From Flavobacterium sp. N2038 (lineage in GTDB: Bacteria; Bacteroidota; Bacteroidia; Flavobacteriales; Flavobacteriaceae), in NCBI RefSeq assembly GCF_025947185.1, contig NZ_CP110001.1, forward strand, positions 3,038,001-3,102,000: a stretch of DNA of 64,000 nt, read 5' to 3'. Below, piece by piece: positions 10,569-49,669 of this stretch (within the stretch, counting starts at the first letter, position 1; every line of letters starts with the position of its first letter). A program made the position numbers and the translations under genes. The notes beneath the pieces are model-generated. The model was not told where the DNA came from. It did not search any database and worked only from the letters and a program-made list of their open reading frames with translations.

Positions 10569-13500
10569 ATGAAAAGTATTATAAACAATAAAAGTGACGA
10601 TCATTTATCTTGTGGCTGCGAAGATCCAATTGAAGGGCTTCGTTACATGTTTTGCAATTTAGTACAAGAAAAAAGAGTAAAACAAGGACAATGCCCCGTT
10701 CGAAGACCTGTCTTTTTAAGAACACATGGAATAATGAAGGGAAGCTTTGTTATTCATGAGAATCTCCCAAAAGAGTTTAGACATGGTATGTTTAAAAAAT
10801 CCGGAACCTTTCCTGTCTATGTAAGATATTCTTCAGATCTGTCAGATGGCAGACCAGACTGGATGAGTACAATTGGTATTGGCATTAAAATATTTGGCAT
10901 TCCCGGCGAAAAAGTAGTGAGTGATGACGGAGCAGAAACAGCAGATTTACTGTTACAGAATGTACCTTTCTTTTTTGTTGATAATGCCAGCGATATGTGC
11001 AATTTTACAAAAGCAAGTCTGGAAGGATGGGGAGATGACTGGGTACAGAAAAATGCCCCGCAAACCAACGAACTTCTTGATAAAATGGCAAAACCAATCC
11101 GATCTGTACTTGAAACAGAATTATGGAGTGTGGTACCATTTATGTTGGGTCCCAATAATCACTGCAAATATATACTTCGCCCCGGAACATCAACTTTCCC
11201 AGGCGATCCTGATATCAATGATCCCGATTTTATGGCAAAAGATCTTGAGGGACGTATAGCTTTAGGACCTGTTACATTAGATATCTATATTCAAAAACGT
11301 CCTGATAGCTCCCAATATGATAAAGCATATATAGAAGAACATTTTCCGCTGGATCGTGCTACAGTAACATGGGATGAAAAGATTGCAGTACCTGTTAAAG
11401 TTGCAACTATAGAACTTCCTCAGCAGGATATTACCAATGAAGAGCAGAAAATATACGGTGACTGGCTGGCTTTTAATATTGGCAGAGTGCCCGAAGCAAA
11501 TCAGCCAGTGGGTAGTATCGCTCAGGCAAGAATGAGTGTCTATCAGACAAGTGCCGATTATCGCAGAAAATTAAATGATCAGCCAGTAACTGAACCGGTA
11601 AAACCGGGAGAACCAATCGTTAAAAATCCTGTTTGTCCTTTTCCGCATCATGATCCCAAACCAGAGCCTAAAGAGCTTACAGAGGATCAAATAAAAAAAA
11701 TAACTCATGTAAAGATACATCCGGGAATTGGTATCGCACGTGTGGGTGATAGTCCTTCTGAGTATTATATTGGCCCTGAAGTATTCAGCCCCGAGCCTAC
11801 CCAATTTGGTTCTACAAGAGATGCAGGAGGCGCTATAAAGCGTCAGGCAGCCCGTTTCAGAATATATGCATATGACAAATATGATAATGTAGTCGCCGAA
11901 GTTGAGCATACTAAAAACTCTAATATTCAGTGGTCTGTACATCTGGCTAACAAAAAAGCTTCATGGTATCAGTTTAATGCTGCTTTAGACATTCCTGCTA
12001 CTGTAAGCCTCTCCGTTCCGTTACGAAATCCTAATGTGACAAGCAGTGGAAGAAGTGCATTATGTATTGATGCTGGCAAAACAATTATAACAGGTTTAAA
12101 CATGAAAGATTCCAGTTATGTGATGACAGGTAATTTTGAAGGTACTCCTGTTACACTTGGAGAACTAAGAACAGATGATGTTGGCAGATTATTAGTATTA
12201 CCTGGTTTTGGAGTTTCTGCAAGTCCTTCAAACAAACCCGTATACAGACCTGAAGATCCTAACAGTTTTAATAATGCCGATGGTTGGTATGACGATATTG
12301 CCGATGGTCCTGTGTACGCAAAAGTGACTATTGGAGGGCTAGATTTTGAAGCAGATTCTGCCTGGGTAGCATCGGCACCACCAAATTTTGCACCAGATCT
12401 TGTAGGCTGGAGAACTATGGATGATCTTTTACAGAATGTCTATATGCAATCTGGTATGCTGGATGTACCGCAAAAAATTTCTTTTAATGAACATGTTCGC
12501 CCTATACTGCAACGATTAAGCGAACTGCAATGGGTAAACAAAGGATTTCTTTCGATGTTTGGCGCCGGTGCTCCAATGAATTTTAATGATCCCGAACTAA
12601 TGCTAAAATTATCTCATGTTCCATCAGATAATGCACTATATCCGGATCCGTATAAAGAACTTAGACGAGGTATATACAATAGTTTCAGGCCAACCAATAC
12701 AAAAACAGCAGAAATTGCCGCATGGCCTTCTATTTACGGTGATGCTTTTGGATATACAAATCCGGATCCTAACTTACCTCCTGCCGCATCCACTTACCTG
12801 CAGTTACCTCCATTTTACACCTATGTTCTTACCAACTGGGTTCAGGGACTTTTTATAAATGATTATCAGCCTGAAACAAAAAAACCGCATAAAATTGAGG
12901 AAGTTGATCTTCAAAAACAACCTGAAACACTTGACAGGTCTGCCATGCACTTTTGTTTGGCAGATGCATTTCATCCGGGTGCAGAATTAACATGGCCCAT
13001 GCGAAATGCCTCAATGTTTAGAGCCCCTTACAGAATTCGTAAATCTGAAGATGGAATAACAGAACCTTTATATGGTGCAACACTGGATAATAATACTGTA
13101 ATGGCAGTAAACGGACCCTTATACGGTCAGTCTGCCGGTGGTCTTACAAGATGGATGGCATTACCGTGGCAGGGAGATACAGCGTTTTGCCGTTCGGGAT
13201 ATGATATGGAATACGATCCTTATTTACCAACATTCTGGCCCGCCCGTGTACCAAATCAAATATTAACAGATGTGGATTATCATACCCTTTGTGACACTTC
13301 CAAACCAATGGATATTAGAATAGCCGCTTTTCAAAACAGACCAAACTGGACCAGAATGTTTCCAAAAAGTCCCGCTCCTGAAGTAATGATGTTCATGGTA
13401 TCTCACTTTAGTCAAATGGGAATCATAGAAGCAAAACCACGCCCTGAGGATATGGACTGGCTGCCTGAAAATATTTATGTAGAAAACCTGACTAAGGCAG

Positions 13501-13646
13501 AAAGTAAAAATCTTAAATCAGACAGTCTTCTTTTCAATAAAGCATTTAATGAACTTGGACTAAAAGATCAAAGAATGGCCGAAGCCGGATGGGATAGCGA
13601 AGAACAAAGAAATGAATTCTTAACCATTAAACGCAGAGGCAATTAA
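10569..13646 (+). CDS. Fusion of catalase-like heme domain and LodA/GoxA-type quinone oxidase
   Basis: This 1025-residue protein joins two enzymes. Residues 20-345 are catalase-like: RTHGIMKG with the distal His53, SGTFPVYVRYSS, GIGIKIFG, QNVPFFF with Asn131, and RMSVY (Arg321-Tyr325) at the proximal heme-ligand site. Residues 375-1000 are LodA-like: VKIHPGIGIARVGDSPSEYY at the start, HFCLADAFHPGAELTW with Cys796, and ALPWQGDTAF with Trp867. In LodA the corresponding Cys and Trp are cross-linked into cysteine tryptophylquinone, which oxidises amines or amino acids with release of ammonia and hydrogen peroxide. The next gene is a LodB-like flavoprotein, the known maturation partner. No signal peptide is seen. 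A peroxide-making oxidase fused to a peroxide-using heme domain is the simplest reading; the substrate is unknown. Confidence 0.85.
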   Translation: MKSIINNKSDDHLSCGCEDPIEGLRYMFCNLVQEKRVKQGQCPVRRPVFLRTHGIMKGSFVIHENLPKEFRHGMFKKSGTFPVYVRYSSDLSDGRPDWMSTIGIGIKIFGIPGEKVVSDDGAETADLLLQNVPFFFVDNASDMCNFTKASLEGWGDDWVQKNAPQTNELLDKMAKPIRSVLETELWSVVPFMLGPNNHCKYILRPGTSTFPGDPDINDPDFMAKDLEGRIALGPVTLDIYIQKRPDSSQYDKAYIEEHFPLDRATVTWDEKIAVPVKVATIELPQQDITNEEQKIYGDWLAFNIGRVPEANQPVGSIAQARMSVYQTSADYRRKLNDQPVTEPVKPGEPIVKNPVCPFPHHDPKPEPKELTEDQIKKITHVKIHPGIGIARVGDSPSEYYIGPEVFSPEPTQFGSTRDAGGAIKRQAARFRIYAYDKYDNVVAEVEHTKNSNIQWSVHLANKKASWYQFNAALDIPATVSLSVPLRNPNVTSSGRSALCIDAGKTIITGLNMKDSSYVMTGNFEGTPVTLGELRTDDVGRLLVLPGFGVSASPSNKPVYRPEDPNSFNNADGWYDDIADGPVYAKVTIGGLDFEADSAWVASAPPNFAPDLVGWRTMDDLLQNVYMQSGMLDVPQKISFNEHVRPILQRLSELQWVNKGFLSMFGAGAPMNFNDPELMLKLSHVPSDNALYPDPYKELRRGIYNSFRPTNTKTAEIAAWPSIYGDAFGYTNPDPNLPPAASTYLQLPPFYTYVLTNWVQGLFINDYQPETKKPHKIEEVDLQKQPETLDRSAMHFCLADAFHPGAELTWPMRNASMFRAPYRIRKSEDGITEPLYGATLDNNTVMAVNGPLYGQSAGGLTRWMALPWQGDTAFCRSGYDMEYDPYLPTFWPARVPNQILTDVDYHTLCDTSKPMDIRIAAFQNRPNWTRMFPKSPAPEVMMFMVSHFSQMGIIEAKPRPEDMDWLPENIYVENLTKAESKNLKSDSLLFNKAFNELGLKDQRMAEAGWDSEEQRNEFLTIKRRGN

Positions 13647-13648
13647 TT

Positions 13649-14776
13649 GTGGATGATATAAAATTTGATGTAATTGTGGCTGGCGCAGGTCCTGCGGGAT
13701 GCGCCGCCGCAATTATACTAAAACGGGCCGGATTAAAAGTTTGTCTGGCAGATAAGGAATTCACAGCCGACTACAAAGTTGGCGAATCGATTCCCGGTGC
13801 ATCAATCCGACTCCTGAATCGTCTTGGTATAAACAGAATTGATGATTTATTAAATAAAAATGAGTACAAACCTTGTCACTCAAATGCTTCTTCTTGGGGA
13901 AATGAAGAATGGGTTTATCAATCCGGTTTAAAAAACCCCGAAGGTGGCGGATACCATGTAAACAGAATTCTTTTTGACCAGGCACTTAAAACAAAAGCAA
14001 CTTCTCTAGATGTTCCGTTGTTTACCTCTTTAATAGACAAAATAAGTGTTTTACCTAATGAACAGTCTTCCAAAAGATTCCTCATTCAGTTTAAAGATGG
14101 TTCTTTTAAAAATATTACTGCAAAATGGATTATAGATGCAACCGGACGTAAAGCCGCTATAGCACACAAACTTGGTATAAAAAAAGTTCGTATTGACAAT
14201 CAGATGGCTGCTGTAAATTGGGTTCAAGCTGCTGTTGATGATAACGATTTTGCTACAAGAATAAAATCAACACCTAATGGATGGTGGTACACTGCGCTTT
14301 TACCTGACCAAAGAAGAGTTATTGGATTTCAAAGTTTGCCTGATACTGTAAGCCAAATGCACAAACAACCAAATTTGTTTTTTCAGGAATTTAATGAGTC
14401 AGGAATATTACCCTATAAAATTACCAGCGAATCTAGTGTACAAAATATTGCTGTTGAAGCCGGATTATCTATATCTGAGTCAATTACAGAAAATCATTTT
14501 CTTTGTGTTGGTGATGCAGCACTTTCTTTTGATCCTCTCGCCTCTCAGGGAATTTTCTTTGCTCTTTACAGCGGAATCAAAGGAGCTGAAACGATTATAA
14601 ATTGTATTAATAACAGCAATCTGGAAGATCAAAATCTTGCAGAGTACAAGTTTATCGTAAATCGGGTATTTAACGAAAATAAAAAAGCACTTCGCTATTT
14701 TTATTTAAATGAACTGCGTTACCCAAATTATCCTTATTGGAAAAATCGCTGGATCAATTATGAAGTTCTTTCCTGA
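13649..14776 (+). CDS. LodB-like FAD-dependent oxidoreductase
   Basis: A 375-residue flavoprotein starting at GTG 13649, two bases after the stop of the fusion oxidase; the nearby ATG at 13653 is out of frame. The N-terminus DVIVAGAGPAGCAAAIILKR is the dinucleotide-binding motif, VGESIPGA is the second FAD contact typical of halogenase/LodB-type flavoproteins, and GDAALSFDPLASQGI is the third. LodB proteins are required to make the cysteine tryptophylquinone of LodA, probably by hydroxylating the Trp. Tight coupling to the upstream gene supports that role. Good confidence in the family and in the partnership. Confidence 0.85.
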   Translation: MDDIKFDVIVAGAGPAGCAAAIILKRAGLKVCLADKEFTADYKVGESIPGASIRLLNRLGINRIDDLLNKNEYKPCHSNASSWGNEEWVYQSGLKNPEGGGYHVNRILFDQALKTKATSLDVPLFTSLIDKISVLPNEQSSKRFLIQFKDGSFKNITAKWIIDATGRKAAIAHKLGIKKVRIDNQMAAVNWVQAAVDDNDFATRIKSTPNGWWYTALLPDQRRVIGFQSLPDTVSQMHKQPNLFFQEFNESGILPYKITSESSVQNIAVEAGLSISESITENHFLCVGDAALSFDPLASQGIFFALYSGIKGAETIINCINNSNLEDQNLAEYKFIVNRVFNENKKALRYFYLNELRYPNYPYWKNRWINYEVLS

Positions 14777-15096: not shown

Positions 15097-16914
15097 ATGC
15101 AAAACGCAATTGCTTTCTCTAACAATGACGTCATAACTATTGCCTGGAGTTTAGGTGAAAAACCAACAGGCTGTCTGGGATTTGCGATATACCGCATTGA
15201 CGATAAAGGCATTGAAACCGCCCTGCCCAACAAGGCTGTTTTCGAAAATTTCCCCTCTTCTGATGACAAGTCATCAAAACTATTTCCGATTCAAAAATTC
15301 TATTGGAAAGATGTTTATGCAAGATTGGTTGCTGAAAAAACAAAGAACAGAATTTTTCAGTATAAAATTGTTCCCATGAAAGGCAGCCCGGGTCATCTGA
15401 TTCCAATGGAAAATTATGCGCCAATGCTCACCAATAAAGTAGAAATTTCGGCTAATGCAGGAAATAATATGTATGCCTATTTCAACCGTGGAATTATCTC
15501 TACTCAAAGGGTTTCTAATTACCTCAATGGCAATTTAAACGTAGATTCTTTACGGGCTCTTGCTGCCGATTATAAAGGAAATCATGAATTGCGAGACAGT
15601 TTATCCGGCGATATGGTTGAGGCTTTGATTGGTTTTCTGGATCGAACAAAAGAAGGTGGTGAAATTTTTGCCGGTCTATATGAACTTGGAGATCCTGAAC
15701 TTATTGAGAAACTTTGTAGTTTGGGTAATAAACTCAATATTGTACTTTCTAACTCTGCAAAACAAGAAAATGACGAAGAGAAAGGAAAATACATTAATAA
15801 AGAAGGTAAGGAAGTTTTTCATAAAAAGACCGTTGACGATAATGATCATGCGCGTGAAAGTCTCAAAAATAGCGGTGCTGTCTCTCATGCTCGCATAATG
15901 CCATCTGGTCATATCGGGCATAATAAATTTCTGGTGTATGTTAATGCTCAAGGAGTTCCAAAAGCTGTTCTTTTCGGATCCACAAACTGGACTCCTACTG
16001 GGCTCTGTACACAAACCAACAATACAATGGTGATTGAAGACGAAGCTTTGGCAAAACGTTATCTCGCCTATTGGAATGAAATGAAAACCGATACTATAAA
16101 TGCAAACGGGCAAAGCAAAAAACTACAATCTACTGACTTTAGAACTCAAAATGCAGCAGGGAAAACGCTTCAAATTGGAGACATCTCTTTACAAAGCTGG
16201 TTCTCCCCTAATACCCCCGCCGCAAGAGGAAAACGTAGTCCTGACGAACCTACACCTGTAGATATGAAGGAAGTTATCAAATGTATTGATAATGCAAAAG
16301 AAGCGATATTGTTTCTGGCTTTTTATCCCGGAGCACCATCTTTAGCAAACTGGACAGCAAAAGCAGTAAAGAATAAAAAGGATCTTTTTGTTAGGGGAAT
16401 GGTTACCAACGACAGTGCATCAGAGAACTTCTATTACGATCTTATTGACGAAGTTCCGCCTAAAAGAGAAAAAAATGTACCTATTAAAGAGGATTTTAGA
16501 GTAGGATCTGCAGATGCATTTAACGGAACTAATATGCCCGAGGGATGGAAAAAAGAAATTCTAAGTGCCGGATTTGCCATTATTCACGACAAAATCATGG
16601 TAATAGATCCATTTTCTGAAAACTGTGTTGTAGTTACCGGAAGTCATAATCTGGGTTATAAAGCTTCTTATGATAATGATGAGAATCTGGCCATTATTAA
16701 AGGCAATAAAAAACTGGCATTAGCTTATGCTACACATGTACTGGATATTTACGATCATTTCAATTTTAGAATTTATTACAAGAAAAAAGGACTTACCAAT
16801 GCTTTTCTTGAAACCGATTCCGATGTTTTTTTAGCTAAATACTTTGATAAAAAAGGAAAAATAAAAAACTCTCAACTCAAATTCTGGATGGATGGGGCAA
16901 GCAAAATTTTATAA
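15097..16914 (+). CDS. Phospholipase D-like (HKD) protein
   Basis: A 605-residue protein with two PLD half-sites. The first is HNKFLVYV (His275, Lys277) followed by LFGSTNWTPTG. The second is HDKIMVID (His497, Lys499, Asp504) followed by TGSHNLGYKA and DNDENLAI. The first site lacks the usual Asp of HxKx4D, having Val at that position; the second is complete. The N-terminal 120 residues are a beta-rich extension that I do not recognise. No signal peptide is present, so it acts in the cytoplasm or is exported another way. PLD-like proteins cleave or form phosphodiester bonds in lipids or nucleic acids; the target is unknown. It follows the oxidase/LodB pair on the same strand after a terminator, so co-transcription is unlikely. 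Confidence 0.82.
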   Translation: MQNAIAFSNNDVITIAWSLGEKPTGCLGFAIYRIDDKGIETALPNKAVFENFPSSDDKSSKLFPIQKFYWKDVYARLVAEKTKNRIFQYKIVPMKGSPGHLIPMENYAPMLTNKVEISANAGNNMYAYFNRGIISTQRVSNYLNGNLNVDSLRALAADYKGNHELRDSLSGDMVEALIGFLDRTKEGGEIFAGLYELGDPELIEKLCSLGNKLNIVLSNSAKQENDEEKGKYINKEGKEVFHKKTVDDNDHARESLKNSGAVSHARIMPSGHIGHNKFLVYVNAQGVPKAVLFGSTNWTPTGLCTQTNNTMVIEDEALAKRYLAYWNEMKTDTINANGQSKKLQSTDFRTQNAAGKTLQIGDISLQSWFSPNTPAARGKRSPDEPTPVDMKEVIKCIDNAKEAILFLAFYPGAPSLANWTAKAVKNKKDLFVRGMVTNDSASENFYYDLIDEVPPKREKNVPIKEDFRVGSADAFNGTNMPEGWKKEILSAGFAIIHDKIMVIDPFSENCVVVTGSHNLGYKASYDNDENLAIIKGNKKLALAYATHVLDIYDHFNFRIYYKKKGLTNAFLETDSDVFLAKYFDKKGKIKNSQLKFWMDGASKIL

Positions 16915-17035: not shown

Positions 17036-18508
17036 CTAAGCTACAGCAAGTAATTGATTTGAAAGAAGAAATACAAAAGTTTTCTTAGACTTTTCTATGG
17101 TCATAAATTGATTCAGATTGGCAACAATATCCGAAACCACTTTGCCATGCATATTTTTAAGAAGCGGAAATAATTCTACCTGATCCAAATAAACTAAAGG
17201 TCGCTCCAGATTAGGATGAATTAATGCCTGTTTTATAACGATGCAGTCATTATCTATAGCATAAACAGATTTAAAAGTAACATTTGAAGAAACGACTATT
17301 TCCTCATTCCAAATTTTATACAAGATGTAGTCAACGGGAATTGGTTCTATGTGTTTTCTTTCAAATATAGATCTGCCAGTATTAAATTCTTTCTCCAGTT
17401 TACTTGTAAATTCTGATTTATTCTTCGAAATATCCAATTGAAAATTGGTTCTTTTTATCCAGAATTCCGTTTTATCGTGGCAAGCCCATGCCTTCTGATA
17501 ATACTCAGCAGTCCAGTGTGTGTGATTTACAACTGATTCTATCATTTTTTCTTCATAAAAATTCTTTGGATGTTCTGAATCCGGGTCTTTCAGATAAGTA
17601 TTTATTGCAATGGCAACCTGCAAAGAAAAACGCATTGCTTTTTCGACACCGGTAGACGAAAGCGGGTCTAAAGTAAAAGCAGCTTCACCAATTTTTACAA
17701 ACTGATTATTCCACGGCGTCTGATTAACAAAAGATGTAACAGAACAACTTTCGATTGCATTGGCTTTTAACTGATTTACAAATGGTGCAAATAGCTCGGT
17801 TTTGCGCATTAAATCCAAAAGATGCAATTCACTTTTTTTGAATTTTACAGTATCTGTAAAAGCCATAATGCGATAGCGATTTTTACATACCGGAGATCCC
17901 CATAACCAGCCCTCATCAATAGCTTCAACAAATGCCTCCTTAAAAACGGCATTGTTATCAATATGTGTCCAGACCGCAATAGCGGGGGGCGCAATAGGAA
18001 CTCTTTCATTCAAAAGCGTTCCTTTACGTCCTCTTCCGTCTAAAACTAATTTTGAGTTAATTTTAATTTCAGACGAATTATGTGTTATGTCTAAAATCCA
18101 TCCATTTTGGGAATTGATAGACTGTTTTAATTTTCCCGGCTGTATCAAATACAATCCTTTTGAAACGGTAAATTGAAGTAATTCCTGATCGAGTTTACTC
18201 CTGTCTACAATTATTCCTCCATTATTTTGTCCCGGTCGTTCGTATATATGCCCTTTATTCTCCCAAATAACCCTGGCAGAAATAGTATTTAAATACATAG
18301 CGTCCTCTAACAAGTGACCTGCATTTAAATAATCAAAAATATTACGAATTCCGGGAGAAAGAGATTCCCCTATTTGTGATCTGGGAAATTCTTCCTGCTC
18401 CAGCATTCCTACTGTATAGCCCATATCTAATAAACGTATTGCAGCACATAATCCCGCGGGACCAGCTCCAAGAACAAAAACGTCAAAAGTTTCAGGAAAT
18501 CTTTTCAT
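17036..18508 (-). CDS. FAD-dependent oxidoreductase of the halogenase/LodB/QhpG type
   Basis: A 490-residue flavoprotein with start ATG at 18508 (an upstream TTG at 18514 is possible). It begins MKRFPETFDVFVLGAGPAG with the GxGxxG motif at residues 14-19. IGESLSPGIRN follows, and then GEAAFTLDPLSSTGVEKAM, the late FAD motif of this superfamily. It is longer than the LodB-like protein on the other strand and differs from it throughout, so it is not a recent copy. It starts 6 bases after the stop of the radical-SAM gene, the last cistron of a five-gene operon. By analogy with LodB and QhpG it probably hydroxylates or oxidises a residue of the LodA-like protein; an alternative is modification of a small molecule. 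A long C-terminal region of about 170 residues has no motif I can name. Confidence 0.82.
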   Translation of the reverse strand: MKRFPETFDVFVLGAGPAGLCAAIRLLDMGYTVGMLEQEEFPRSQIGESLSPGIRNIFDYLNAGHLLEDAMYLNTISARVIWENKGHIYERPGQNNGGIIVDRSKLDQELLQFTVSKGLYLIQPGKLKQSINSQNGWILDITHNSSEIKINSKLVLDGRGRKGTLLNERVPIAPPAIAVWTHIDNNAVFKEAFVEAIDEGWLWGSPVCKNRYRIMAFTDTVKFKKSELHLLDLMRKTELFAPFVNQLKANAIESCSVTSFVNQTPWNNQFVKIGEAAFTLDPLSSTGVEKAMRFSLQVAIAINTYLKDPDSEHPKNFYEEKMIESVVNHTHWTAEYYQKAWACHDKTEFWIKRTNFQLDISKNKSEFTSKLEKEFNTGRSIFERKHIEPIPVDYILYKIWNEEIVVSSNVTFKSVYAIDNDCIVIKQALIHPNLERPLVYLDQVELFPLLKNMHGKVVSDIVANLNQFMTIEKSKKTFVFLLSNQLLAVA

Positions 18509-18514
18509 TGGCAA

Positions 18515-19900
18515 TTAATTATTCCAATTGGGTTTTAATCTCGATAATCTTTCATTGGCTTGTATCGTATAAAATAACCATGATCTGATATAATCGCAAG
18601 CAGGTCTTCCTTTGTCAATTACTTCATGATGACAGCCTCCTCCGCATAAATAACGAGCCCAGCATTGCGAACATGGTTCTTGTTTGTTAACATGTCTGTT
18701 AGCCAACCAGTTGTTTTGCAGATCAGATTGTACACCATCAGTTAAATTACCCATTTTACCTGCTTCTTCGTTTACAAAACGATGACAGGCAAATAGTTCT
18801 TCATCTGCAGATACTCCCATATATCCGGCACCGGCACCACAAGGATAAGGTCTGTGAGTTCCTTTTGAAATTTCTTTTAATGCATTTACCATATTCAAAA
18901 AAGGATAACGTTTTCCTTCTAATACATTTTTTTCAAAATTAAGTCCACAGGCAATCATATTTTCCAACATGACAGACAGCTGTTCTTTATTCATTTCATT
19001 TTGTCCATTACTGGATTTCAACAAAGGAGAAAAGCCTACACCATGAAATCCCATACGAACAAACTCATCTAAAATCTCTGGAAGGTTCGTAATTTCAGGT
19101 GTTACGGTCACTCTTGCCGAAACCTGCATTTTTTTCTGCATAGCCAATAATGGCTGAATATTTTTTATGATTCTGTCGTAGCTCCCGTTTCCACCTTTCA
19201 TTGGTCGGTTCAGATCATGATCTTTGCCAATTCCGTCTAAACTTATCGTGACTGAGAAGCCATATTCTTCAAAAAATACGGCATCACTTTCTGTTACTAA
19301 AGTACCATTTGTTGTAATCGAATAGCTAACCTGAATGTTTTTCTTCTTTGCAGCCGTTTCGGCATAAAGAGTCGCTTCTCTAATTGCTTTTCTGTTAATC
19401 AGAGGTTCACCGCCTAAAAAGGTAAGTTGAGCTTTTCCTCCTTGGGGACAATCTTTTAACAATAGATCTATGGCCTTAAAAGCAGTTTCTAAAGACATAC
19501 TCTTTGTAGGGCCTCCAAAATCACCCTGATCGGCATAACAATAGGTGCATCCCATATTACATTTCTGAGCTATTGCTAATGATAAAGCATGCAAAGGCGG
19601 ACTTTGCAAAGGTTCATCTGTAATATATTCCGGAGCATCAATGCCTAAAAGTGCCAGCTCGTTTTGCAGGGCATTTTCATCCTTTTCATTCATTAAAAAA
19701 GCAATTTTTTGTTCTATTTCGGGAGAAATAGTATAAAGCCTGCTTCCATTTGGAATAAAGATCTGAGTCGTCTGTCCGCCTTTTACCAAATGTGCTTTGG
19801 CCGAGCGCGGTCTGGACTGCGGAACAATAACCTGTGCCAGCTTGGTGGCAATCAGGTTATTTCGTTTCTCCTGAGAAAATCTTTCAATAGCGCCTATCAT
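18515..19900 (-). CDS. Radical SAM/SPASM maturase
   Basis: A 461-residue enzyme. C114-N-M-G-C118-T-Y-C121 is the CxxxCxxC motif holding the SAM-binding 4Fe-4S cluster, and LTFLGGEPLIN is the GGE motif. The SPASM region shows PCGAGAGYMGVSADEELFAC and CSQCWARYLCGGGCHHE, typical of two auxiliary clusters. The N-terminal 110 residues resemble the leader of maturases that modify proteins, as in QhpD, which forms thioether cross-links in quinohemoprotein amine dehydrogenase. The start codon overlaps the stop of the LodA-like gene by 4 bases (ATGA at 19897-19900), so the two are translationally coupled and the LodA-like protein is the most likely target. The type of bond formed is unknown. Confidence 0.88.
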   Translation of the reverse strand: MIGAIERFSQEKRNNLIATKLAQVIVPQSRPRSAKAHLVKGGQTTQIFIPNGSRLYTISPEIEQKIAFLMNEKDENALQNELALLGIDAPEYITDEPLQSPPLHALSLAIAQKCNMGCTYCYADQGDFGGPTKSMSLETAFKAIDLLLKDCPQGGKAQLTFLGGEPLINRKAIREATLYAETAAKKKNIQVSYSITTNGTLVTESDAVFFEEYGFSVTISLDGIGKDHDLNRPMKGGNGSYDRIIKNIQPLLAMQKKMQVSARVTVTPEITNLPEILDEFVRMGFHGVGFSPLLKSSNGQNEMNKEQLSVMLENMIACGLNFEKNVLEGKRYPFLNMVNALKEISKGTHRPYPCGAGAGYMGVSADEELFACHRFVNEEAGKMGNLTDGVQSDLQNNWLANRHVNKQEPCSQCWARYLCGGGCHHEVIDKGRPACDYIRSWLFYTIQANERLSRLKPNWNN

Positions 19901-22209
19901 TTCTTGTCTCCTGGTTTAGGTTTTACTATACTGCTTTCTATCGCATCTTTACCTTCAATAATGAAATTAAGTTCTCCCTGCCAGTTTTCAAAAAGATCCT
20001 GATACGAGATTAATCTTGTATTTTTCCAGTCATCCGGAATATAAGATCCTGTTCGCTTTTTTGACATCCATAAATCACCTGTACTTAAACCGTTTTCGTC
20101 CGGAACAATATTTACAAAATCAGGTCTGCTGGCTGCCCAGTAGTAACAAGAACATTCGCGATAATCATTTTGCCAGGGAGCACAAAGGCCTTGTGTTAAT
20201 TCTCCGGGTTTTAAAACAGTATCTGAAAATGCTGCGCTGTTACCATCAAATATTTTATTTACAACCAGTTTTATCTTAATATATTTTTTAGGATCATTCA
20301 ATTGGCTTAAATCTACCACCACTTCTTCTAATGACGGTTCTGCTGTAAAATGACAAATAACTTCCTGTCCTTGTTTTTGTAAAACCTCAACCATAGAATT
20401 TGACCATTCCATAAACGAAACCCCGTTAGGATTGGCGTTTGTTTTTAAAGGAACATTGTCGCCATCAGGAAATACAGGTCCAAAAGTTTGCACCATTGTA
20501 GCTTTTCCTTCTATGGCTACCAGTCTGTGCCCAATTAAATTTGAATCTGTTGCTTCGAGTACATAGTTATTATTTTCCATAAGAACGATGCCGCTAAAAG
20601 CTCTTCTCCAAAGGTTTCTGAAATCAAATTCAAGTCCCGGATAGCAATTTGAGATGGCTGTTCTTGGCAAAACTGCAATAGGATTCCCGACTCCTCTGTA
20701 GTGCAATTGTGCAGTTAAATTTGAAGCTTTAAGCGGCGAACCATATGATACCGGCAAAGTATCAGGATTACTGTCGTTAAACATAGATTTAGTTGCAGCT
20801 TTTATAATTGTATTGATTTGTCGGTACGTAAAAGTTAGTGATCGGCCATCTGCACCACGCATCAGAGCAGGCATTTTTCGAAGTGCTGTGCTTGATAAAT
20901 CACCAATTTCTGTAGGTCTTCGTAATACATCTCCAAACCATGGAGAGGCTCCGGAGCTTAATCCGTTGAATACTCTTTCATGTAATAGCTGCAAAGCAAG
21001 ATTATCAACAAGTGAAGTAGCCATAATAGGTTCAAAAAGACGTCCGAAATCACTTGTATTCTGGCGCACCATTGTACTGGCAACATTTTGTTTCCCTTCG
21101 TAACTATTACCATTCATAATCGTTGTATTCATCAGACGAATGGTTTCAAAAGCCCTGCGAATAATTTCTTCGGCTTCTTCTATACTTACTTCTCCCTCTA
21201 TATCGGTTCCTTCGATAATTTGTTCAAGCTCATCTGAAACTACACGAATTGGTAAAGTATCCGGCGCAAAAGAAGGAGGTCCGGCACTAATATGGGCCTT
21301 GGCAGTTAAGGTCTTATCATCTGAAACTTTTAGTTTAACCGTAACAAAACCATCACATTCATCATCAATATATCCCCAGCTTACCTGCCAGCTTTCGTTT
21401 TTATCATCTGTATAAGGATATCCCGCAAAAATTTGAGCCGGAACGGTATAGAATATATTTGGATTACTGCCTTCTTTATAACCACGCCAGGTTCCTTTTC
21501 CTTTACTGATATCGTACAATATTCTATCTTTATCACCTTCTCCATTTTCCTTTTTAAAAGTAGGATCTATTTCTGTATCGTCAACACCAGACGCTGTATT
21601 TCTATATAAACTGGAACCATAAACTTTTCCTCCGGCTGGTGTATAACGCAGTCTTAACTCTGGAAAATCTTTTGTTGGTTTTACATACTGAACAGAGCCT
21701 AATGGCAGTTTTTTGTTTGGGAGAAAGTTGTTGCAGTCCGCTAATAATGGTTTAAGTTCGTGTGAACTAATATTACTTAATTTGGCCGTCATCTTATCGT
21801 TTACATCACCCGTTCTTCTGAATATTTTTATGTTTGCCACATCAACATCCCAGGAAATGTCTTTCAGGCTTAATCCTGACTGCTTAAGTAATTCCTCTGT
21901 AAGAGGTACTAACTCGTCTGGTTTTTGATCTGTTATAGCAAAAACCTCCAGAAAAGGAGAAACCGGATGAATCTTTCCTTTTCTGTCTTCCAGATCCAGA
22001 ACTTCTTTAAATTTTATCTTTAAGGGTTTATGAGCAGTAATTTCTCCTGTATCCGGATCAACTGATAATGTTGTTTTTGGAATAATTTCTCTATAATCAA
22101 GCGGTTTTTCTTTTGATAATTGAAGATCGTATGCATCCATTGGTTTCTTTGATTCTCCAAGTCTGCCAATTGCAATTGGTGGAAGAATTCTTAATTCAAT
22201 AATTTTCAT
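19897..22209 (-). CDS. Divergent LodA-like protein (predicted quinone-cofactor oxidase)
   Basis: A 770-residue protein. Its start, LRILPPIAIGRLGESKKPMD, matches the LodA opening IxPxIGIARVGxS. Near the C-terminus CAPWQNDYRECSCYYWAASR matches the PWQ segment holding the cofactor Trp (here Trp679). NCYPGLEFDFRNLW corresponds to the Cys-PGxE segment, but the cysteine (Cys522) sits two residues before PG instead of seven as in the fusion oxidase at 10.6-13.6 kb. An insertion of about 85 residues separates the Cys and Trp regions compared with that protein. There is no signal peptide. It lies between a VioB-type ferritin-like gene and a coupled radical-SAM gene, with a flavoprotein downstream. I infer a post-translationally made quinone or thioether cofactor; substrate unknown. 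Confidence 0.78.
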   Translation of the reverse strand: MKIIELRILPPIAIGRLGESKKPMDAYDLQLSKEKPLDYREIIPKTTLSVDPDTGEITAHKPLKIKFKEVLDLEDRKGKIHPVSPFLEVFAITDQKPDELVPLTEELLKQSGLSLKDISWDVDVANIKIFRRTGDVNDKMTAKLSNISSHELKPLLADCNNFLPNKKLPLGSVQYVKPTKDFPELRLRYTPAGGKVYGSSLYRNTASGVDDTEIDPTFKKENGEGDKDRILYDISKGKGTWRGYKEGSNPNIFYTVPAQIFAGYPYTDDKNESWQVSWGYIDDECDGFVTVKLKVSDDKTLTAKAHISAGPPSFAPDTLPIRVVSDELEQIIEGTDIEGEVSIEEAEEIIRRAFETIRLMNTTIMNGNSYEGKQNVASTMVRQNTSDFGRLFEPIMATSLVDNLALQLLHERVFNGLSSGASPWFGDVLRRPTEIGDLSSTALRKMPALMRGADGRSLTFTYRQINTIIKAATKSMFNDSNPDTLPVSYGSPLKASNLTAQLHYRGVGNPIAVLPRTAISNCYPGLEFDFRNLWRRAFSGIVLMENNNYVLEATDSNLIGHRLVAIEGKATMVQTFGPVFPDGDNVPLKTNANPNGVSFMEWSNSMVEVLQKQGQEVICHFTAEPSLEEVVVDLSQLNDPKKYIKIKLVVNKIFDGNSAAFSDTVLKPGELTQGLCAPWQNDYRECSCYYWAASRPDFVNIVPDENGLSTGDLWMSKKRTGSYIPDDWKNTRLISYQDLFENWQGELNFIIEGKDAIESSIVKPKPGDKK

Positions 22210-22254
22210 ATCGTGGTATTTTTAATAATTAATGGGAGTAAAAATGATCTGAAG

Positions 22255-23748
22255 CTATACCAGATTCTCTTCGGTTAAACTTGCAATTGTCTGAAGCAAT
22301 TTTTGATCTGCCTCTTGCAGTCCGTTCAAATATTGAATGTGCGGCTGGGTTTTGAAGTTTTTTAACTGCACAATAATGTTATTTGAGGCTTCCAGAAGAT
22401 CTCTGTGCAATCTCCATCGATTGTGTTCTCCAAAAGGTAAATCAAATGTATAAGGCAATGTAAATGGAGGTCCCGCTACTTTGGTACTATTTTTTGAGAT
22501 GGGGGTCTGAACCAGAATAGTAGCCAGGCTTCTTAAATTATACATTTCTCCAAATGCCGAATTGATAATCATACCGCGAGGAGAAGAATTTCCTGAATTA
22601 TTAAAACCGTTATCTAATAAAAAACTGTGATTTAAAAAGTTAAGCAATAATCGATAACGAATATCACACAAGTTGGCCCAAAGTATCGCTTCCGGACTTG
22701 TAATTTCATCACTTTCTTTTTCCTCTGCCGAACTAGCTGCATCTGATTCTTCTTTTAAATTAGATGCTGAACCTACATAAGGATTTGTAGCCACATTTCT
22801 GGAAGGATCAAACTTGTTATTAGTTTCTTCTAATATTGCCTTGTACTCTTTGTAGATATGCAAAAAACGTTCAAAATGAGATGGCAGACTTTCATCTGTT
22901 TCTAAACCCTCACCTTGTTCTGCTATCTCGGACAATGCATTGTAGGCATCGTCACGGGATAACAACGGAGCTACCAATACATCAGGACTTTTGGCATAAA
23001 TATTTTGTCCGTCACTTCCTCTGCTTCCTCCCACATATCCACGTCCCCATTCATCAATCTTTGCCTGATAATTGTAAGTTGCAGCCTGAAAAGTCTCATC
23101 TGATATTACTTTAGGATCCTTAATTAATTGTAGTAATACCACAAATAATGCTCCAACAGTATGAGGATCTGATATCGTCGAATCTACAGAAGTTCTAATT
23201 TCTATTGCCAGTTCATCATCACCTGCAAGCCAGTCGCAAGGCGCCTCAGCATATACATATTTAGCAAGTGATTTAAGAGAGAATTTTTCCAGCGTAAAAG
23301 GAAAAGGATAAAAAGGGCTGTCCCACGGGTAACTTTCTCTTCCAAAATTTAAAGGTGCTCCAATTACTTTTAACACATTCTGAACCGAAATAAAATGCCC
23401 CATTTCTTCCTTGGCTATACCCAGAATAATATTTTGCCAGGTATGTACTTTTTCCTGATATTTTTCCGGAACATTTGCTCCTCCCATACTATAGGCTGAG
23501 TACAGGTATTGTAACATAAGTCCCTGCTCAATTTCGGCATCGATTTGTAACAGCATCGTAATATAATCTTTGCCGTTAAACTGGGAGGGTACCTTAAAAG
23601 GTTCTCCGTCTTTTAAACGATCACAATTGCTTTTGGCATCACCAATAGCCATAACCAGGCCTTTGGCAACATTTTGCTGTGGGGCGCTGGCTTTTGCCCA
23701 TTCTAAAATTGGAGAGATAAAATGATCTCTTTTCTCGTTGTAATTCAT
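22255..23748 (-). CDS. Ferritin-like protein of the VioB/iminophenylpyruvate dimer synthase type
   Basis: A 497-residue protein whose residues 60-260 form a ferritin-like helical bundle: AEIEQGLMLQYLYSAYSMGG carries the first Glu and AKEEMGHFISVQNVLK carries the ExxH pair, both typical metal ligands. The length and the APCDWLAGDDELAIEIRTSV segment fit the domain found in VioB and RebD-type proteins, in which imines of amino acids are coupled. An acidic low-complexity stretch (SASNLKEESDAASSAEEKES) splits the protein, followed by a second helical half (SPEAILWANLCDIRYRLLLN). The gene is 46 bases upstream of the LodA-like gene. The pairing suggests the oxidase makes an imine that this protein uses, but an iron or oxygen-handling role is equally possible. 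Confidence 0.8.
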   Translation of the reverse strand: MNYNEKRDHFISPILEWAKASAPQQNVAKGLVMAIGDAKSNCDRLKDGEPFKVPSQFNGKDYITMLLQIDAEIEQGLMLQYLYSAYSMGGANVPEKYQEKVHTWQNIILGIAKEEMGHFISVQNVLKVIGAPLNFGRESYPWDSPFYPFPFTLEKFSLKSLAKYVYAEAPCDWLAGDDELAIEIRTSVDSTISDPHTVGALFVVLLQLIKDPKVISDETFQAATYNYQAKIDEWGRGYVGGSRGSDGQNIYAKSPDVLVAPLLSRDDAYNALSEIAEQGEGLETDESLPSHFERFLHIYKEYKAILEETNNKFDPSRNVATNPYVGSASNLKEESDAASSAEEKESDEITSPEAILWANLCDIRYRLLLNFLNHSFLLDNGFNNSGNSSPRGMIINSAFGEMYNLRSLATILVQTPISKNSTKVAGPPFTLPYTFDLPFGEHNRWRLHRDLLEASNNIIVQLKNFKTQPHIQYLNGLQEADQKLLQTIASLTEENLV

Positions 23749-23833
23749 GGTATCTTTAGTTAGTTAATCTTTGTTTTTTAATGAAAAGAATCACAGTATT
23801 TCAATAGAAAAATACTGTGATTCCGGTATAATT

Positions 23834-25369
23834 TTAAGATTTATGATAAGGACATTCTGATGCTGATGCTGAAGAAGTAATGATACTTGAACTTGGAAAT
23901 TGTTTTTCGATTAAACTTCTTTGCTCAGGCGAAACATCGTCTATCTTGCGAAGTGTATTAACTTGTATATGCGGCCAGCTTGTTGTGCCCCCGTTATCTC
24001 CAAAATCAAATTCGAAAAAGATAATCTGTTCGTATTGCAGCTGCAGAATTTCTACTCCGTTTTCTTCGACTGTTTCAATCCACATTCTCATGTTCATTTC
24101 GACAGTCGGAACAAAACGATTTACAAACGGCACATTTAATATCCCACCTTGCGCTCCTGTTTTATTTTTGGATGACAAATCAATACGTACGTGATTTTTA
24201 ATCACTTTTCCTTTGTTATTATCACGCAAACGTAAATCTGGTCGTACAGAGTAAGGATATAGATGATGAGCAAGTATACGCTGTGTATAAATTCTGTTTT
24301 CTTGCGGGTCATTTTTGTGATCCAACTTTTCAAATACCCAGGCTGGTGGCGGTGCATCAAGATTTATAGGGTCAGTCTCACTTGCTCCTGCGCCTCCCAT
24401 GGTTTGGGATATAGAAAGATGATCATACTTCCAGGCTGCATCTCCGCTTGGAAATGCCGGAGCACCCTGTATTAAAAAACTACTTCCCTTTGGTTTTAAA
24501 TCACCTAATAAAGTTACCGTACTTCCATGAGGAATAACGCCACTTCTGGATATAGAGTAATCCGGAATAAAATAAGTTCCTGTCTGACCCGCTCCCGGTT
24601 TAAGTTCTTTGGCTGCTATAATATTGTAATACTCACGTCCGTTTAGATTTTCCAGCGTTACATATTCTTTTACTCCTTTATCGTTTATAACCAAAAAAAG
24701 AGTTTCGTCCTGATAACCACTCTTATACAAATGTCTATTCGGATCATCTGGTGCTACTGCATGAATACCACGGTCTTCTTCAATTGTTTTTTTGGTAGCG
24801 GCATAATTAAATATTTGACTCAGCCATAAATACATTCCGTTTTCTTCGTGAATTGGAGTATATTCCAAATTAGACTTACCCGGAATTCTATTTACACTTT
24901 TTATACTTTGATCATATTTTACAGCTCCGCAAAATTGCTCGTTTGCTCCTCCACGATTACGAACTCCTCCGGGAACCAGATTAAAAGTTAGTTTTTCTAT
25001 ATACTCTTCGCATTCAAAACTATATTTTCCCGGAATTGTTCCTGCATTTGTTCCCGGAGACGGCATAATAGTAGTATGTATACCGCTTCCTACCAAATTA
25101 CCCTGGTTATCATTATAACTAACCCAGGTGCCTTCCAGCATACTTAAAACTCCATAATCTACGTTTTTAACAATTTCCTGTAGATTCTCTTCGCGAAAAG
25201 GATTAATAGGAGTTTCAATCAGAAGTTGTTTATATTCTGACATCAATTTTTCTAATCTACCCTGATCACCAGGAGTAGCTTTCAATAAGGATTCATTTCC
25301 CTGGTCAACTAAATTTGCGGCAAATTGAGATTCGTTTAAATCATCCGCAAGGTTTTTACGTTGTAACAT
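23834..25369 (-). CDS. Lipocalin/nitrobindin-like protein, first gene of the operon
   Basis: A 511-residue protein without a signal peptide. MLEGTWVSYNDNQGN followed by EYIEKLTFNLVP and then IHEENGMYLWLSQ gives the GTW...E...HEExG order seen in nitrobindin and other fatty-acid-binding-like beta-barrels that hold heme or lipids. A second beta-rich half runs to the end, with WVFEKLDHKNDPQENRIYTQ and LQYEQIIFFEFDFGD. The tail ends SASECPYHKS, with Cys and His that could bind a metal. It is the first of five same-strand genes with gaps of 85 bases or less, so it belongs to the LodA-like/radical-SAM operon. It may deliver a ligand or bind the substrate; no function can be assigned with confidence. 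Confidence 0.65.
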   Translation of the reverse strand: MLQRKNLADDLNESQFAANLVDQGNESLLKATPGDQGRLEKLMSEYKQLLIETPINPFREENLQEIVKNVDYGVLSMLEGTWVSYNDNQGNLVGSGIHTTIMPSPGTNAGTIPGKYSFECEEYIEKLTFNLVPGGVRNRGGANEQFCGAVKYDQSIKSVNRIPGKSNLEYTPIHEENGMYLWLSQIFNYAATKKTIEEDRGIHAVAPDDPNRHLYKSGYQDETLFLVINDKGVKEYVTLENLNGREYYNIIAAKELKPGAGQTGTYFIPDYSISRSGVIPHGSTVTLLGDLKPKGSSFLIQGAPAFPSGDAAWKYDHLSISQTMGGAGASETDPINLDAPPPAWVFEKLDHKNDPQENRIYTQRILAHHLYPYSVRPDLRLRDNNKGKVIKNHVRIDLSSKNKTGAQGGILNVPFVNRFVPTVEMNMRMWIETVEENGVEILQLQYEQIIFFEFDFGDNGGTTSWPHIQVNTLRKIDDVSPEQRSLIEKQFPSSSIITSSASASECPYHKS

Positions 25370-25912: not shown

Positions 25913-27937
25913 TTAGTTTACCAGAACTTTTAACTGAATGTATTTTTGCAGATCCTTAAAATCATGCCCTTTTCCTTTCATCGATTTAATAAAAGAAGGC
26001 GTAGTGCCCGTAGCTTTAGCTCCAACAATATCTTCAATATCCAGATTGGTAAAACCAAGGTCTCTATATTGCTGAATTAAATCTGATGTTATATTTTGTG
26101 ATTTTAAAGCAAACAGATCTTCTGCTCTGATATCTTTAAATCCCGATTTTTTAAAACTGTTTACATATTCCGGTGTAATATTTAATGACTTTAAAGCCAT
26201 TAAATCACTATTAGAAAGATCATTATACCCTAGTTTTTTAAAGGAATCAATAAATGCCTGATCAATATTTAATGATTTAAAGGCAATAATATCATCGTTA
26301 GAATCTTTTTCATCATTGTTATCCTCAGTACTCTTAACTTTATTCTTTTTGCCTTCGTTAGTAGCATTATGGAAATCAGCTATATATTTCCCATCAATGC
26401 CCTGAGATTTTAAGGCAATAATTTTATCAGGACTAACATCCTTATAGCCTGCTTTGCGAATTTCATCAATATAAGCTTTATCAATTCCCAATGCTTTAAA
26501 AGGAATCAGATTATCTAAACTAATATCTGTCATGGCCTGTTTAATCGATGTGATATAAGCCTCATTAATATCTAGTGCTGCAAGAGGAATAAGTTGATCT
26601 TTATCCAGATTAGTATACCCTTGCTTTTTAAGCATTTGTACATAAGATTGTTTAATATTTATCATATAAAAAACAACAAGGTCGCTTTTTTCTGAAAGGA
26701 CAATGCCTTCTTTTTGCATCGCAGCGCTGTACTCTTTATTACCAGTAAACTTGTAGGTTCCCATGCCCTTGTCTCCTTCAAATTTACCTGTAAAAGACAT
26801 TGTTCCTGCCTCACGTGTTGCAGTAAATTCACCTTGCTTTTCTCTTGGAAGACTGGAAAATTCGCTTAACTGAAAAGTATTTGAAGAAGTACTGTTCTCA
26901 TCGCTTTTGAATTGGATGTTTACAGCAGTACCTTTAATAGTAGCAAACCAATTGCCTTCTGTTTTCATTTCGCTGTGAATTTCAGCGTGCTGTTCCGGTT
27001 TTTCTTTAGAACTAAGCGTTTGACTTTGTGCTGCCGGTTGATTAAAAAGGCACACAAATAACACCATAATCGGTAACAGGAAAAAATATTTCCAGGTGGT
27101 GTTTACATTTGATTTTTTTGAGTTCATCATGATGATTCGTTTTTTTAAAAGTGATTGATTATAATTGGTAGTGAGACTCAAAGGAAATTGGGGTGCTGCT
27201 ACTTTAAGCAGGCTAAACTGGTAACTTTCTCTTTCAACAGTATGTTGCTGCAGCATTTTGTCATCTGTCAAAAATTCCAGATTAATTTCCAAGGCTTTTC
27301 TCCATTGCCATGCAAAAGGATTAAACCACTGAAAGATAAGAACTAACTCGGCAAGCAAAAGATCAACCGTATGTTTTTGCTCAATATGAATTTTCTCATG
27401 CTGCAAAATCTGGTCGTAGGTTTCCCATTCGTATTTTTCAGGATTAATGAAAATATTATTAGCAAAAGAACATGGTGCTTTGTCTCCCGTTATCTCAACA
27501 ATACGGAATTTTCCATCCTGAATAACAGAACCTGAATATGCTCTGTAAACCAAGATTACAATTTGCATTAAAAAGTTGAGCCCAAAAATTAGCACACCAA
27601 ACCAATACAAATAAACCAAGAACTGACTAACTGTTTCAATATTGACAATCTGTTTGGTCTCTTCGGTAAATACAGGCTCAACGGTCTGTTCCTTCGATTG
27701 TATTGCTGTAGTTTTTTCAATTGGTGTTTTAGAAATTTCAATGTGCTTTTTCTCAGAAACTTCTCTTAATGAAAATTGCTGAGGAACCGGAACCAAAGGC
27801 AAAATAAAAGCCAGCACCATACAGAAAAGCAATACAAATCTGTTTAGGTGAAAAAAAGTTTCTTTTTGCAACAACAGCTTGTAAAACACAAGACAGGCAG
27901 AAAGAACCAAAGCTGTATACAAAATATAAGGTATCAT
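25913..27937 (-). CDS. blaR1: BlaR1/MecR1-type M56 sensor metallopeptidase with C-terminal repeats
   Basis: A 674-residue membrane peptidase. Four hydrophobic segments (the N-terminal pair, about residues 105-130, and about 285-300) surround the zinc site HEKIH at residues 180-184 in the long cytoplasmic loop. In BlaR1 proteins this domain, when triggered, causes loss of the BlaI repressor. There is no penicillin-binding sensor domain; residues 310-410 read like a beta-sandwich and about 415-665 are roughly eight imperfect units of 25-30 residues (pattern LxxLxIxxxYIxxxKxxGYxDLxxDxL). Ligand is unknown. It overlaps blaI by 4 bases (27934-27937). Confidence 0.9.
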   Translation of the reverse strand: MIPYILYTALVLSACLVFYKLLLQKETFFHLNRFVLLFCMVLAFILPLVPVPQQFSLREVSEKKHIEISKTPIEKTTAIQSKEQTVEPVFTEETKQIVNIETVSQFLVYLYWFGVLIFGLNFLMQIVILVYRAYSGSVIQDGKFRIVEITGDKAPCSFANNIFINPEKYEWETYDQILQHEKIHIEQKHTVDLLLAELVLIFQWFNPFAWQWRKALEINLEFLTDDKMLQQHTVERESYQFSLLKVAAPQFPLSLTTNYNQSLLKKRIIMMNSKKSNVNTTWKYFFLLPIMVLFVCLFNQPAAQSQTLSSKEKPEQHAEIHSEMKTEGNWFATIKGTAVNIQFKSDENSTSSNTFQLSEFSSLPREKQGEFTATREAGTMSFTGKFEGDKGMGTYKFTGNKEYSAAMQKEGIVLSEKSDLVVFYMINIKQSYVQMLKKQGYTNLDKDQLIPLAALDINEAYITSIKQAMTDISLDNLIPFKALGIDKAYIDEIRKAGYKDVSPDKIIALKSQGIDGKYIADFHNATNEGKKNKVKSTEDNNDEKDSNDDIIAFKSLNIDQAFIDSFKKLGYNDLSNSDLMALKSLNITPEYVNSFKKSGFKDIRAEDLFALKSQNITSDLIQQYRDLGFTNLDIEDIVGAKATGTTPSFIKSMKGKGHDFKDLQKYIQLKVLVN

Positions 27938-28296
27938 ATTTTCTCTTTTTTAATAATATTTACTATTTCGTCCAGTTCTTTCTCAGACAGCTTTTGCTCT
28001 TTTGCAAAAAAAGCAAGCATTCTCGGATACGAATTATCAAAATACTGGCTCACAACATCTTTCAATGCAAACTGCTGGTATTCTTCTTTACTGACTACAG
28101 GAAAATAACAATTCATATTTCCGGCAGTTTCATGATTCAGAAAACCTTTCTCTTCTAATATCTTTACGATTGTCGCCACACTATTATAATGCGGTTTAGG
28201 ATCTGGCAATAATGGAATAATATCTCTAATAAAAGCTTTGTTTAAATCCCAGAACACCTGCATAATTTGTTCTTCTCTTTTTGCTAACTTAATCAT
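27934..28296 (-). CDS. blaI: BlaI/MecI/CopY-family transcriptional repressor
   Basis: A 120-residue winged-helix repressor. KREEQIMQVFWDLNKAFIRD is the first helix pair, HYNSVATIVKILEEKGFLNH is the recognition helix with the family's typical N-S-V-A-T-I motif, and the C-terminal helices QYFDNSYPRMLAFFAKEQKL serve dimerisation and contain the region usually cleaved. It is the first gene of a two-gene unit with blaR1 (4-base overlap). Strong dyad sequences directly upstream are its probable autoregulatory operator. Confidence 0.93.
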   Translation of the reverse strand: MIKLAKREEQIMQVFWDLNKAFIRDIIPLLPDPKPHYNSVATIVKILEEKGFLNHETAGNMNCYFPVVSKEEYQQFALKDVVSQYFDNSYPRMLAFFAKEQKLSEKELDEIVNIIKKEKI

Positions 28297-49663: not shown

Positions 49664-49669
49664 TTGCTT

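Follow-up and report, generated by a model that had tools for sequence, protein, structure and literature searches.

A conserved operon joins a LodA-like protein to QhpD- and QhpG-like maturases, probably as a hybrid route to cysteine tryptophylquinone

Examination of a 64,000-nucleotide stretch of the Flavobacterium sp. N2038 genome (contig NZ_CP110001.1, positions 3,038,001 to 3,102,000 of the forward strand; this whole stretch is termed the window, and all coordinates are its own) revealed an operon in which the gene for a 770-residue protein with the LodA/GoxA fold is accompanied by genes for a radical S-adenosylmethionine (SAM) protein resembling QhpD and a flavin monooxygenase resembling QhpG. 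We consider it likely that the encoded protein is a LodA-fold quinoprotein whose cysteine tryptophylquinone (CTQ) is built by a route of the type serving quinohemoprotein amine dehydrogenase (QHNDH) and not by the LodB route. The system is widely conserved, recurring across several phyla; the kind of cofactor and the kinds of enzyme are known, and it is their combination that is new. A survey of the open-access literature (bioRxiv not being covered), judged by titles and abstract openings, revealed no description of a LodA-like protein partnered by a radical SAM enzyme.

The initial annotation of five minus-strand genes at window positions 17036..25369, with the positions and spacing described there, was confirmed. 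The order of transcription is FMP, VioB-like, LodA-like, radical SAM and QhpG-like, and the last of these genes starts either at TTG (18514) or at ATG (18508). The first gene, initially annotated as lipocalin-like, instead encodes an FMP-type peroxidase. The components of the operon are as follows:

23834..25369, minus strand: FMP-type peroxidase, putative haem protein, accessory (606 bits, cut-off 300)
22255..23748, minus strand: VioB-type ferritin-like protein, putatively di-iron, constant partner (PF12902, 90.2 bits, cut-off 22.3)
19897..22209, minus strand: LodA-like quinoprotein, 770 residues, predicted substrate of both maturases
20119..20184, minus strand: codons of LodA-like residues 676-697, predicted to form a cross-linked quinone loop
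20119..20184, minus strand: bonds predicted in that loop, namely a C676-D682 thioether, the C686-W691 bond of CTQ and a C688-D697 thioether
18515..19900, minus strand: radical SAM/SPASM protein, QhpD/PapB-like, predicted to form Cys-Asp thioethers (TIGR03906 and PapB models)
17036..18514, minus strand: QhpG-like flavin monooxygenase, predicted peptidyl-Trp hydroxylase (NF049967)

The distribution of this gene set was considered in a scan of 84,980 species genomes. Of 172 stretches that matched, 125 encoded relatives and 80 were kept, to which the loci of Flavobacterium sp. N2038 itself and of one relative (L001 and L002) were added, giving 82 loci. Their record titles include Flavobacterium, Dyadobacter, Chitinophaga, Hymenobacter, Massilia, Burkholderia, Bradyrhizobium and Archangium, as well as Kitasatospora, Verrucomicrobia, Acidobacteria and Planctomycetota. 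The VioB-like gene was present at 81 loci, the radical SAM gene at 81, the QhpG-like gene at 76, the FMP gene at 11 and a LodB gene at 2. The conserved core consists of the VioB-like, LodA-like, radical SAM and QhpG-like genes, with FMP as an accessory. All four core genes occur at 75 of the 82 loci, such that the gene set is indeed conserved; its lack of conservation was one of the outcomes that, according to the initial annotation, would have refuted the interpretation made there. At 74 of these 75 loci the genes appear on one strand in the order VioB-like, LodA-like, radical SAM, QhpG-like, the sole exception being L044, where the QhpG-like gene lies upstream. The genes that are absent fall at the ends of loci or contigs (VioB-like at L081; radical SAM at L036; QhpG-like at L001, L002, L036, L042, L055 and L059). 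At most of the 75 loci, successive core frames touch or overlap one another, the largest stop-to-stop gaps being 420 and 163 bases (L032) and 127 bases (L016 and L019). Clustering of neighbors beyond the core yielded only lineage-specific genes, the commonest at 17 of 80 loci. By contrast, 18 loci encoding ordinary LodA proteins, serving as controls, contained LodB in every case, the VioB-like gene in none and FMP in one (36 bits); a radical SAM gene was found at one of the 18 (L112, scoring 50 bits at a distance of 2.4 kb), and at none was it adjacent. Among Flavobacterium sp. N2038 and 59 of its relatives, 2 of the 60 genomes, including its own, encode the LodA-like protein.

At 20 of the 82 loci (L036, L061, L063-L067, L069-L080 and L082), the LodA-like gene is present as two open frames, encoding about 470 and about 300 residues. 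In the three split loci that were read (L063, L079 and L036), the quinone motif described below lies in the second frame. L057 was not counted as split, given how its broken frames affect three core genes and resemble sequencing error. As a separate observation, a large protein encoded beside the core is common to thirteen loci (L040, L043, L044, L046, L047, L050-L054, L056, L060 and L062); by eye, the L047 copy resembles an adenylate cyclase/ATPase protein.

The LodA-like protein is divergent, as initially annotated. It scored 22.7 bits with Pfam LodA_C (cut-off 25) and 17.2 bits with LodA_N (cut-off 26.3), while a genome-wide Pfam search returned 24.8 bits, or 25.3 when counted together with neighbors. 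All three NCBIfam models that matched did so below their cut-offs. The LodA and GoxA equivalog models yielded 23.7 bits (cut-off 600) and 26 bits (cut-off 750), respectively, and the QhpC model NF037958 yielded 12.9 bits (cut-off 50). Where the listed homologues are named by their source, they are hypothetical or uncharacterised proteins.

LodA and GoxA are CTQ-dependent enzymes, oxidizing lysine (lysine 6-oxidase) and glycine (glycine oxidase), respectively. In LodA, CTQ is formed from Cys516 and Trp581 (PMC4417212). HMMER aligned LodA residues 488-527 with residues 658-697 of the window protein without gaps, pairing PWQAD512FFNC516 with PWQND682YREC686, such that Cys516 corresponds to C686 and Asp512 to D682. 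W691 aligns with a Trp common to all 19 ordinary LodA-like proteins considered (18 from loci L112-L129 and the catalase-LodA protein of the window), which precedes an A-x-(R/V)-P motif. Because LodA Cys516 aligns gap-free with C686, the predicted quinone pair is Cys686 and Trp691. The initial annotation had named Cys522 and Trp679 instead, a pair that was ruled out: Cys522 is replaced by Ala in 4 of 77 aligned family members, and Trp679 is the Trp of the PWQ motif shared with LodA.

Conservation of the loop was addressed in an alignment (A2) of these 77 family members (57, including the query, from a homologue list and 20 from the genome loci). C686, W691 and D682 were found in 77/77 family members and in 19/19 ordinary LodA-like proteins. 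By contrast, C676 and C688 were each present in all 77 family members and in none of the 19 ordinary proteins, and D697 in all 77 and in one of the 19. Cys522 does not separate the two groups in this manner, being Cys in 73/77 and 14/19, respectively. In a further set, made up of the query together with 120 listed homologues (candidates for these having been gathered using words from residues 1-500, independently of the motif), C676, D682, C686, W691 and D697 were found in 121/121 proteins and C688 in 120/121. Among the core proteins, invariant Cys residues not otherwise accounted for occur in the LodA-like protein only; Cys columns of the VioB-like protein reach at most 30% and those of the QhpG-like protein at most 59/75, while the conserved Cys residues of the radical SAM protein look like cluster ligands. 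As compared to LodA, the window protein gains C676, C688 and D697, and has its CTQ Trp 5 residues after the Cys rather than 65.

The added residues recall the QHNDH gamma subunit, QhpC, where QhpD forms C7-E16, C27-D33 and C41-D49 bonds and CTQ comprises C37 and W43 (PMC8172795, PMC7876137). QhpC was sampled from four loci among 299 genomes and from 743 protein-database homologues; in the 120 of the latter that were listed, C7, E16, C27, C37, C41 and D49 were invariant, with D33 found in 119 and W43 in 118. When the full 770-position LodA-like profile was compared with that of QhpC using hhalign, residues 673-715 aligned with QhpC 52-97 (score 27.5, E 0.0045) in a register that brings the loop onto C27-D33, C37-W43 and C41-D49, with two spacings off by one residue. 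The motif alone yielded an E value of 0.0005, and none of 200 shuffles of the QhpC columns reached the real score, be it with the full profile or with the motif. The order of residues is the same in both proteins, that is, C-x5-D, CTQ Cys, second ring Cys, CTQ Trp and ring Asp, and the +6 spacing of C676-D682 is identical to that of the first QhpC bond. The proteins differ in that QhpC is a 9-kDa subunit, whereas the substrate here is a 770-residue LodA-fold protein or, in some genomes, a separate C-terminal half of about 300 residues.

The two predicted maturases belong to the same families as QhpD and QhpG, as the initial annotation had recognized. For the radical SAM protein, TIGR03906 (QhpD) was the best NCBIfam model at 300.1 bits (cut-off 453), with PapB at 271.5 bits (cut-off 340); it falls under the cut-off in all 25 of the 74 model matches that were listed, these matches including cyclophane- and thioether-forming relatives. 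Across 426 aligned columns, the protein shares 31% identity with a QhpD, and the next QhpD-like match in the same genome scored 21 bits. It holds the full set of cluster Cys residues, with CxxxCxxC and C318 conserved in 80/80 sequences and the SPASM auxiliary residues C354, C372, C410, C413, C419, C423 and C435 in 79/80. PapB, grouped here with related ranthipeptide maturases, makes Cys-Asp S-Cbeta bonds (PMC8172795), although its substrate is a peptide with Cys-x3-Asp, whereas the bonds predicted in the present case would span x5 and x8 in an enzyme. The flavoprotein passed the QhpG model NF049967 (250.2 bits, cut-off 240) and scored 129.1 bits with LodB (cut-off 400); with the same QhpG model, a family member from genome G060 scored 281 and QhpG proteins of QHNDH systems 407 to 588. 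An unrooted tree was built from 55 flavoproteins (34 from the 76 loci of the new family, that of the window among them; 17 of 19 LodB proteins, two rows with over-long frames being omitted; and four QhpG proteins of QHNDH systems). Each of the three groups formed a single clade, with support of 98/91 to 100/99, placing the QhpG-like proteins apart from LodB.

The initial annotation had raised the possibility of a new kind of cofactor. This is doubtful: as the CTQ Cys and Trp and the Asp of LodA are all kept, it is simpler to assume ordinary CTQ plus a pair of Cys-Asp thioethers, and what the operon encodes is probably a third, hybrid CTQ pathway. From the gene set and its conservation, the fold, the conserved residues and the profile match, we infer the chemical steps, the substrate and the roles of the VioB-like and FMP proteins as follows. 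The radical SAM enzyme would introduce S-Cbeta thioethers between Cys676 and Asp682 and between Cys688 and Asp697, the second of these closing a 10-residue ring that holds Trp691. In QhpC, the QhpD-made Cys41-Asp49 ring likewise encloses Trp43, and docking places the 39-51 loop in the QhpG channel (PMC7876137). The QhpG-like flavoprotein would then dock on the ring and hydroxylate Trp691 at two positions; enclosure of Trp691 by the C688-D697 ring would explain why a QhpG-like protein, and not LodB, travels with the radical SAM enzyme. Oxidation would next link Cys686 to the hydroxylated Trp691, yielding ordinary CTQ. As the operon contains no cytochrome c gene, this final oxidation may fall to the VioB-like partner, which is constant and putatively di-iron. 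In the mature enzyme, Asp682 may serve as the active-site base in oxidizing a primary amine or amino acid, and the FMP haem protein, where present, could deal with peroxide.

In the VioB-like protein, E74, E115, H118 and E168 are each conserved in 81/81 aligned sequences and, judging by the ferritin-like ExxH pattern, are presumably metal ligands. As to haem, the initial annotation held that the operon lacks the heme subunit, which stands insofar as no cytochrome subunit gene, and likewise no QhpE or QhpF gene, was found within the operon, to which the search was confined; the operon does, however, encode a putative haem protein, FMP. Foldseek comparison of the FMP model with the PDB returned nothing under E 0.001.

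Published work describes tryptophylquinone systems as divergent strategies that converged, with a LodB or GoxB route, in which the first step is thought to be autocatalytic, set against the use of QhpD and QhpG (PMC7876137). The present family places the QhpD and QhpG machinery on the LodA scaffold, and differs from LodA/GoxA with LodB/GoxB in that its flavoprotein is QhpG-like and in that radical SAM and VioB-like proteins have been added. Within the protein and locus sets considered, the radical SAM gene is found where the Cys/Asp pattern is and is missing where it is not, the residue signature thereby tracking the machinery. It thus becomes possible to test what residues and bonds are required by each flavoprotein, and whether QhpG depends on a thioether ring around the Trp; moreover, the radical SAM enzyme would be installing thioethers in a large enzyme and not in a peptide. 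More speculatively, and somewhat against the odds as a whole, the QHNDH-type radical SAM enzyme and Trp hydroxylase would act on a LodA fold with the di-iron VioB-like protein replacing haem (QHNDH, MauG) as final oxidant; a quinone module would be common to the C-terminal domain of LodA and the gamma subunit of QHNDH, and the lone C-terminal-half gene found in many proteobacteria would represent a living intermediate linking one-chain LodA with the small gamma subunit.

Several points weigh against CTQ formation by a QHNDH-type route. The full-length profile match is modest, the best shuffle scoring 27.0 as compared to 27.5, and spacings differ from those of QhpC, with C688-D697 at +9 rather than +8 and C686-W691 at +5 rather than +6. 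For the remaining QhpC bond, Cys7-Glu16, no clear match could be assigned; by eye, C522-PGLE527 looks similar to C7...PGWE16, yet Cys522 is variable in the family and common in ordinary LodA-like proteins, as noted above. Nor was the 28-residue leader of QhpC recognizable by eye in the LodA-like protein. The modeled loop at residues 671-690 has a low confidence score (pLDDT about 57), and LodA itself carries C507 one position off C676 in the HMMER alignment. D529 (77/77 vs 0/19) and C285 (76/77 vs 3/19) also separate the family from ordinary LodA-like proteins, without explanation; they possibly reflect another cross-link or an active-site feature. The ordinary LodA set is small, at 19 proteins. 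Moreover, the genome loci had been found with the patterns CAPWQND or EC[AS]CYYW, such that 20 of the 77 aligned proteins were selected by motif and offer as independent evidence D697 and whichever pattern went unused, leaving the 121-protein set as the count free of such selection. Among the maturases, the radical SAM protein reaches neither the QhpD nor the PapB cut-off, and the flavoprotein clears that of QhpG with only 10 bits to spare, sharing 20% identity with a QhpG of a QHNDH system over 385 columns. Finally, being unrooted, the flavoprotein tree does not show which two of its groups are closest, and several of its branches are long; the LodA tree is likewise unrooted.

Alternative explanations were also weighed. 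Were the radical SAM enzyme itself to join Cys to Trp or to another carbon, a new protein-derived cofactor would form on the loop, much as the initial annotation proposed but on different residues. The short Cys-Trp spacing of C686-S-C688-Y-Y-W691, the invariance of Tyr690 and Trp691 in the 77 family members and the versatility of radical SAM/SPASM enzymes, with cyclophane- and thioether-forming relatives, are all in keeping with this idea, which is nonetheless improbable given that none of the three CTQ residues of LodA has been lost, that QhpG belongs to a Trp-hydroxylase family (PMC7876137) and that the closest radical SAM relatives form Cys-Asp/Glu bonds. Still less probable is that the radical SAM enzyme and flavoprotein act on some other target, with the LodA-like protein maturing alone or with the LodB-like protein encoded at 13649-14776. 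Such a gene does lie 2.3 kb away in the window; even so, LodB-like genes occur at only two of the 82 loci (L008 and L009), each of which has its own second LodA gene, and the nearby LodB was ruled out as a partner on these grounds. The joint presence and absence of the Cys/Asp pattern and the radical SAM gene also speaks against another target, as does a model search for QhpC in the Flavobacterium sp. N2038 genome, which returned no match, albeit with none in control genomes either, the same model having found four in 299 other genomes. The QH_gamma model similarly gave no match in five family genomes and none in the control. A small precursor peptide was likewise rejected as the radical SAM substrate, as no small Cys-rich open reading frame was found in the gap upstream of the operon or at its downstream end, and the core frames leave little room between them at most loci.

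A different role for the VioB-like protein is a fair contender, if one we would not bet on, and is compatible with the rest of the proposed CTQ route. VioA and VioB are paired enzymes of violacein synthesis. By analogy, the LodA-like and VioB-like proteins would form a substrate-level pair, in which an amino acid is converted to an imine that is used by the ferritin-like protein, the latter having no part in making the cofactor. The presence of the VioB-like gene at 81 of 82 loci and the 41.4-bit match to the VioB model TIGR04492 are consistent with such pairing, as is the description of fungal lodA genes near PF12902 genes (PMC4417212). Yet, the score is far below the cut-off of 1250 for VioB (iminophenyl-pyruvate dimer synthase), and the match is confined to a ferritin-like segment, the best stretch aligning residues 58-174 with 601-738 of 1003; in addition, no further gene family is found around the core at more than 17 of 80 loci. 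The fungal group V loci, compared by description, resemble the present ones in the proximity of LodA-like and PF12902 genes and differ in that a LodB-like gene is present and in that the main text of PMC4417212 does not contain the word 'radical'.

At lower window coordinates than the operon, an ordinary CTQ system lies on the plus strand, at 10569-14776. This comprises a catalase-LodA fusion (10569-13646; 1025 residues), the 'catalase' label of which relies on fusions described in PMC4417212 and on inspection by eye, and the LodB-like gene considered above, which scored 215 bits with LodB (cut-off 400). LodA and LodB genes are likewise neighbors of the operon in Flavobacterium branchiicola (L009) and in Dyadobacter diqingensis (L008). 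In the window, a plus-strand gene at 15097-16914 separates the two quinoprotein systems, lying tail to tail with the operon; it encodes a 605-residue protein with phospholipase D (PLD)-like domains (PF13091). Elsewhere in the window, a minus-strand frame of 1438 residues at 2012-6328 resembles, by eye, a fusion of an RND heavy-metal pump with a TolC-like outer membrane protein; the minus-strand region at 25913-28296 encodes what appears by eye to be a BlaR1-like membrane protein with C-terminal repeats of about 20 residues, with a BlaI-like gene adjoining; and a single open frame of 3476 residues occupies 49664-60094 on the plus strand.

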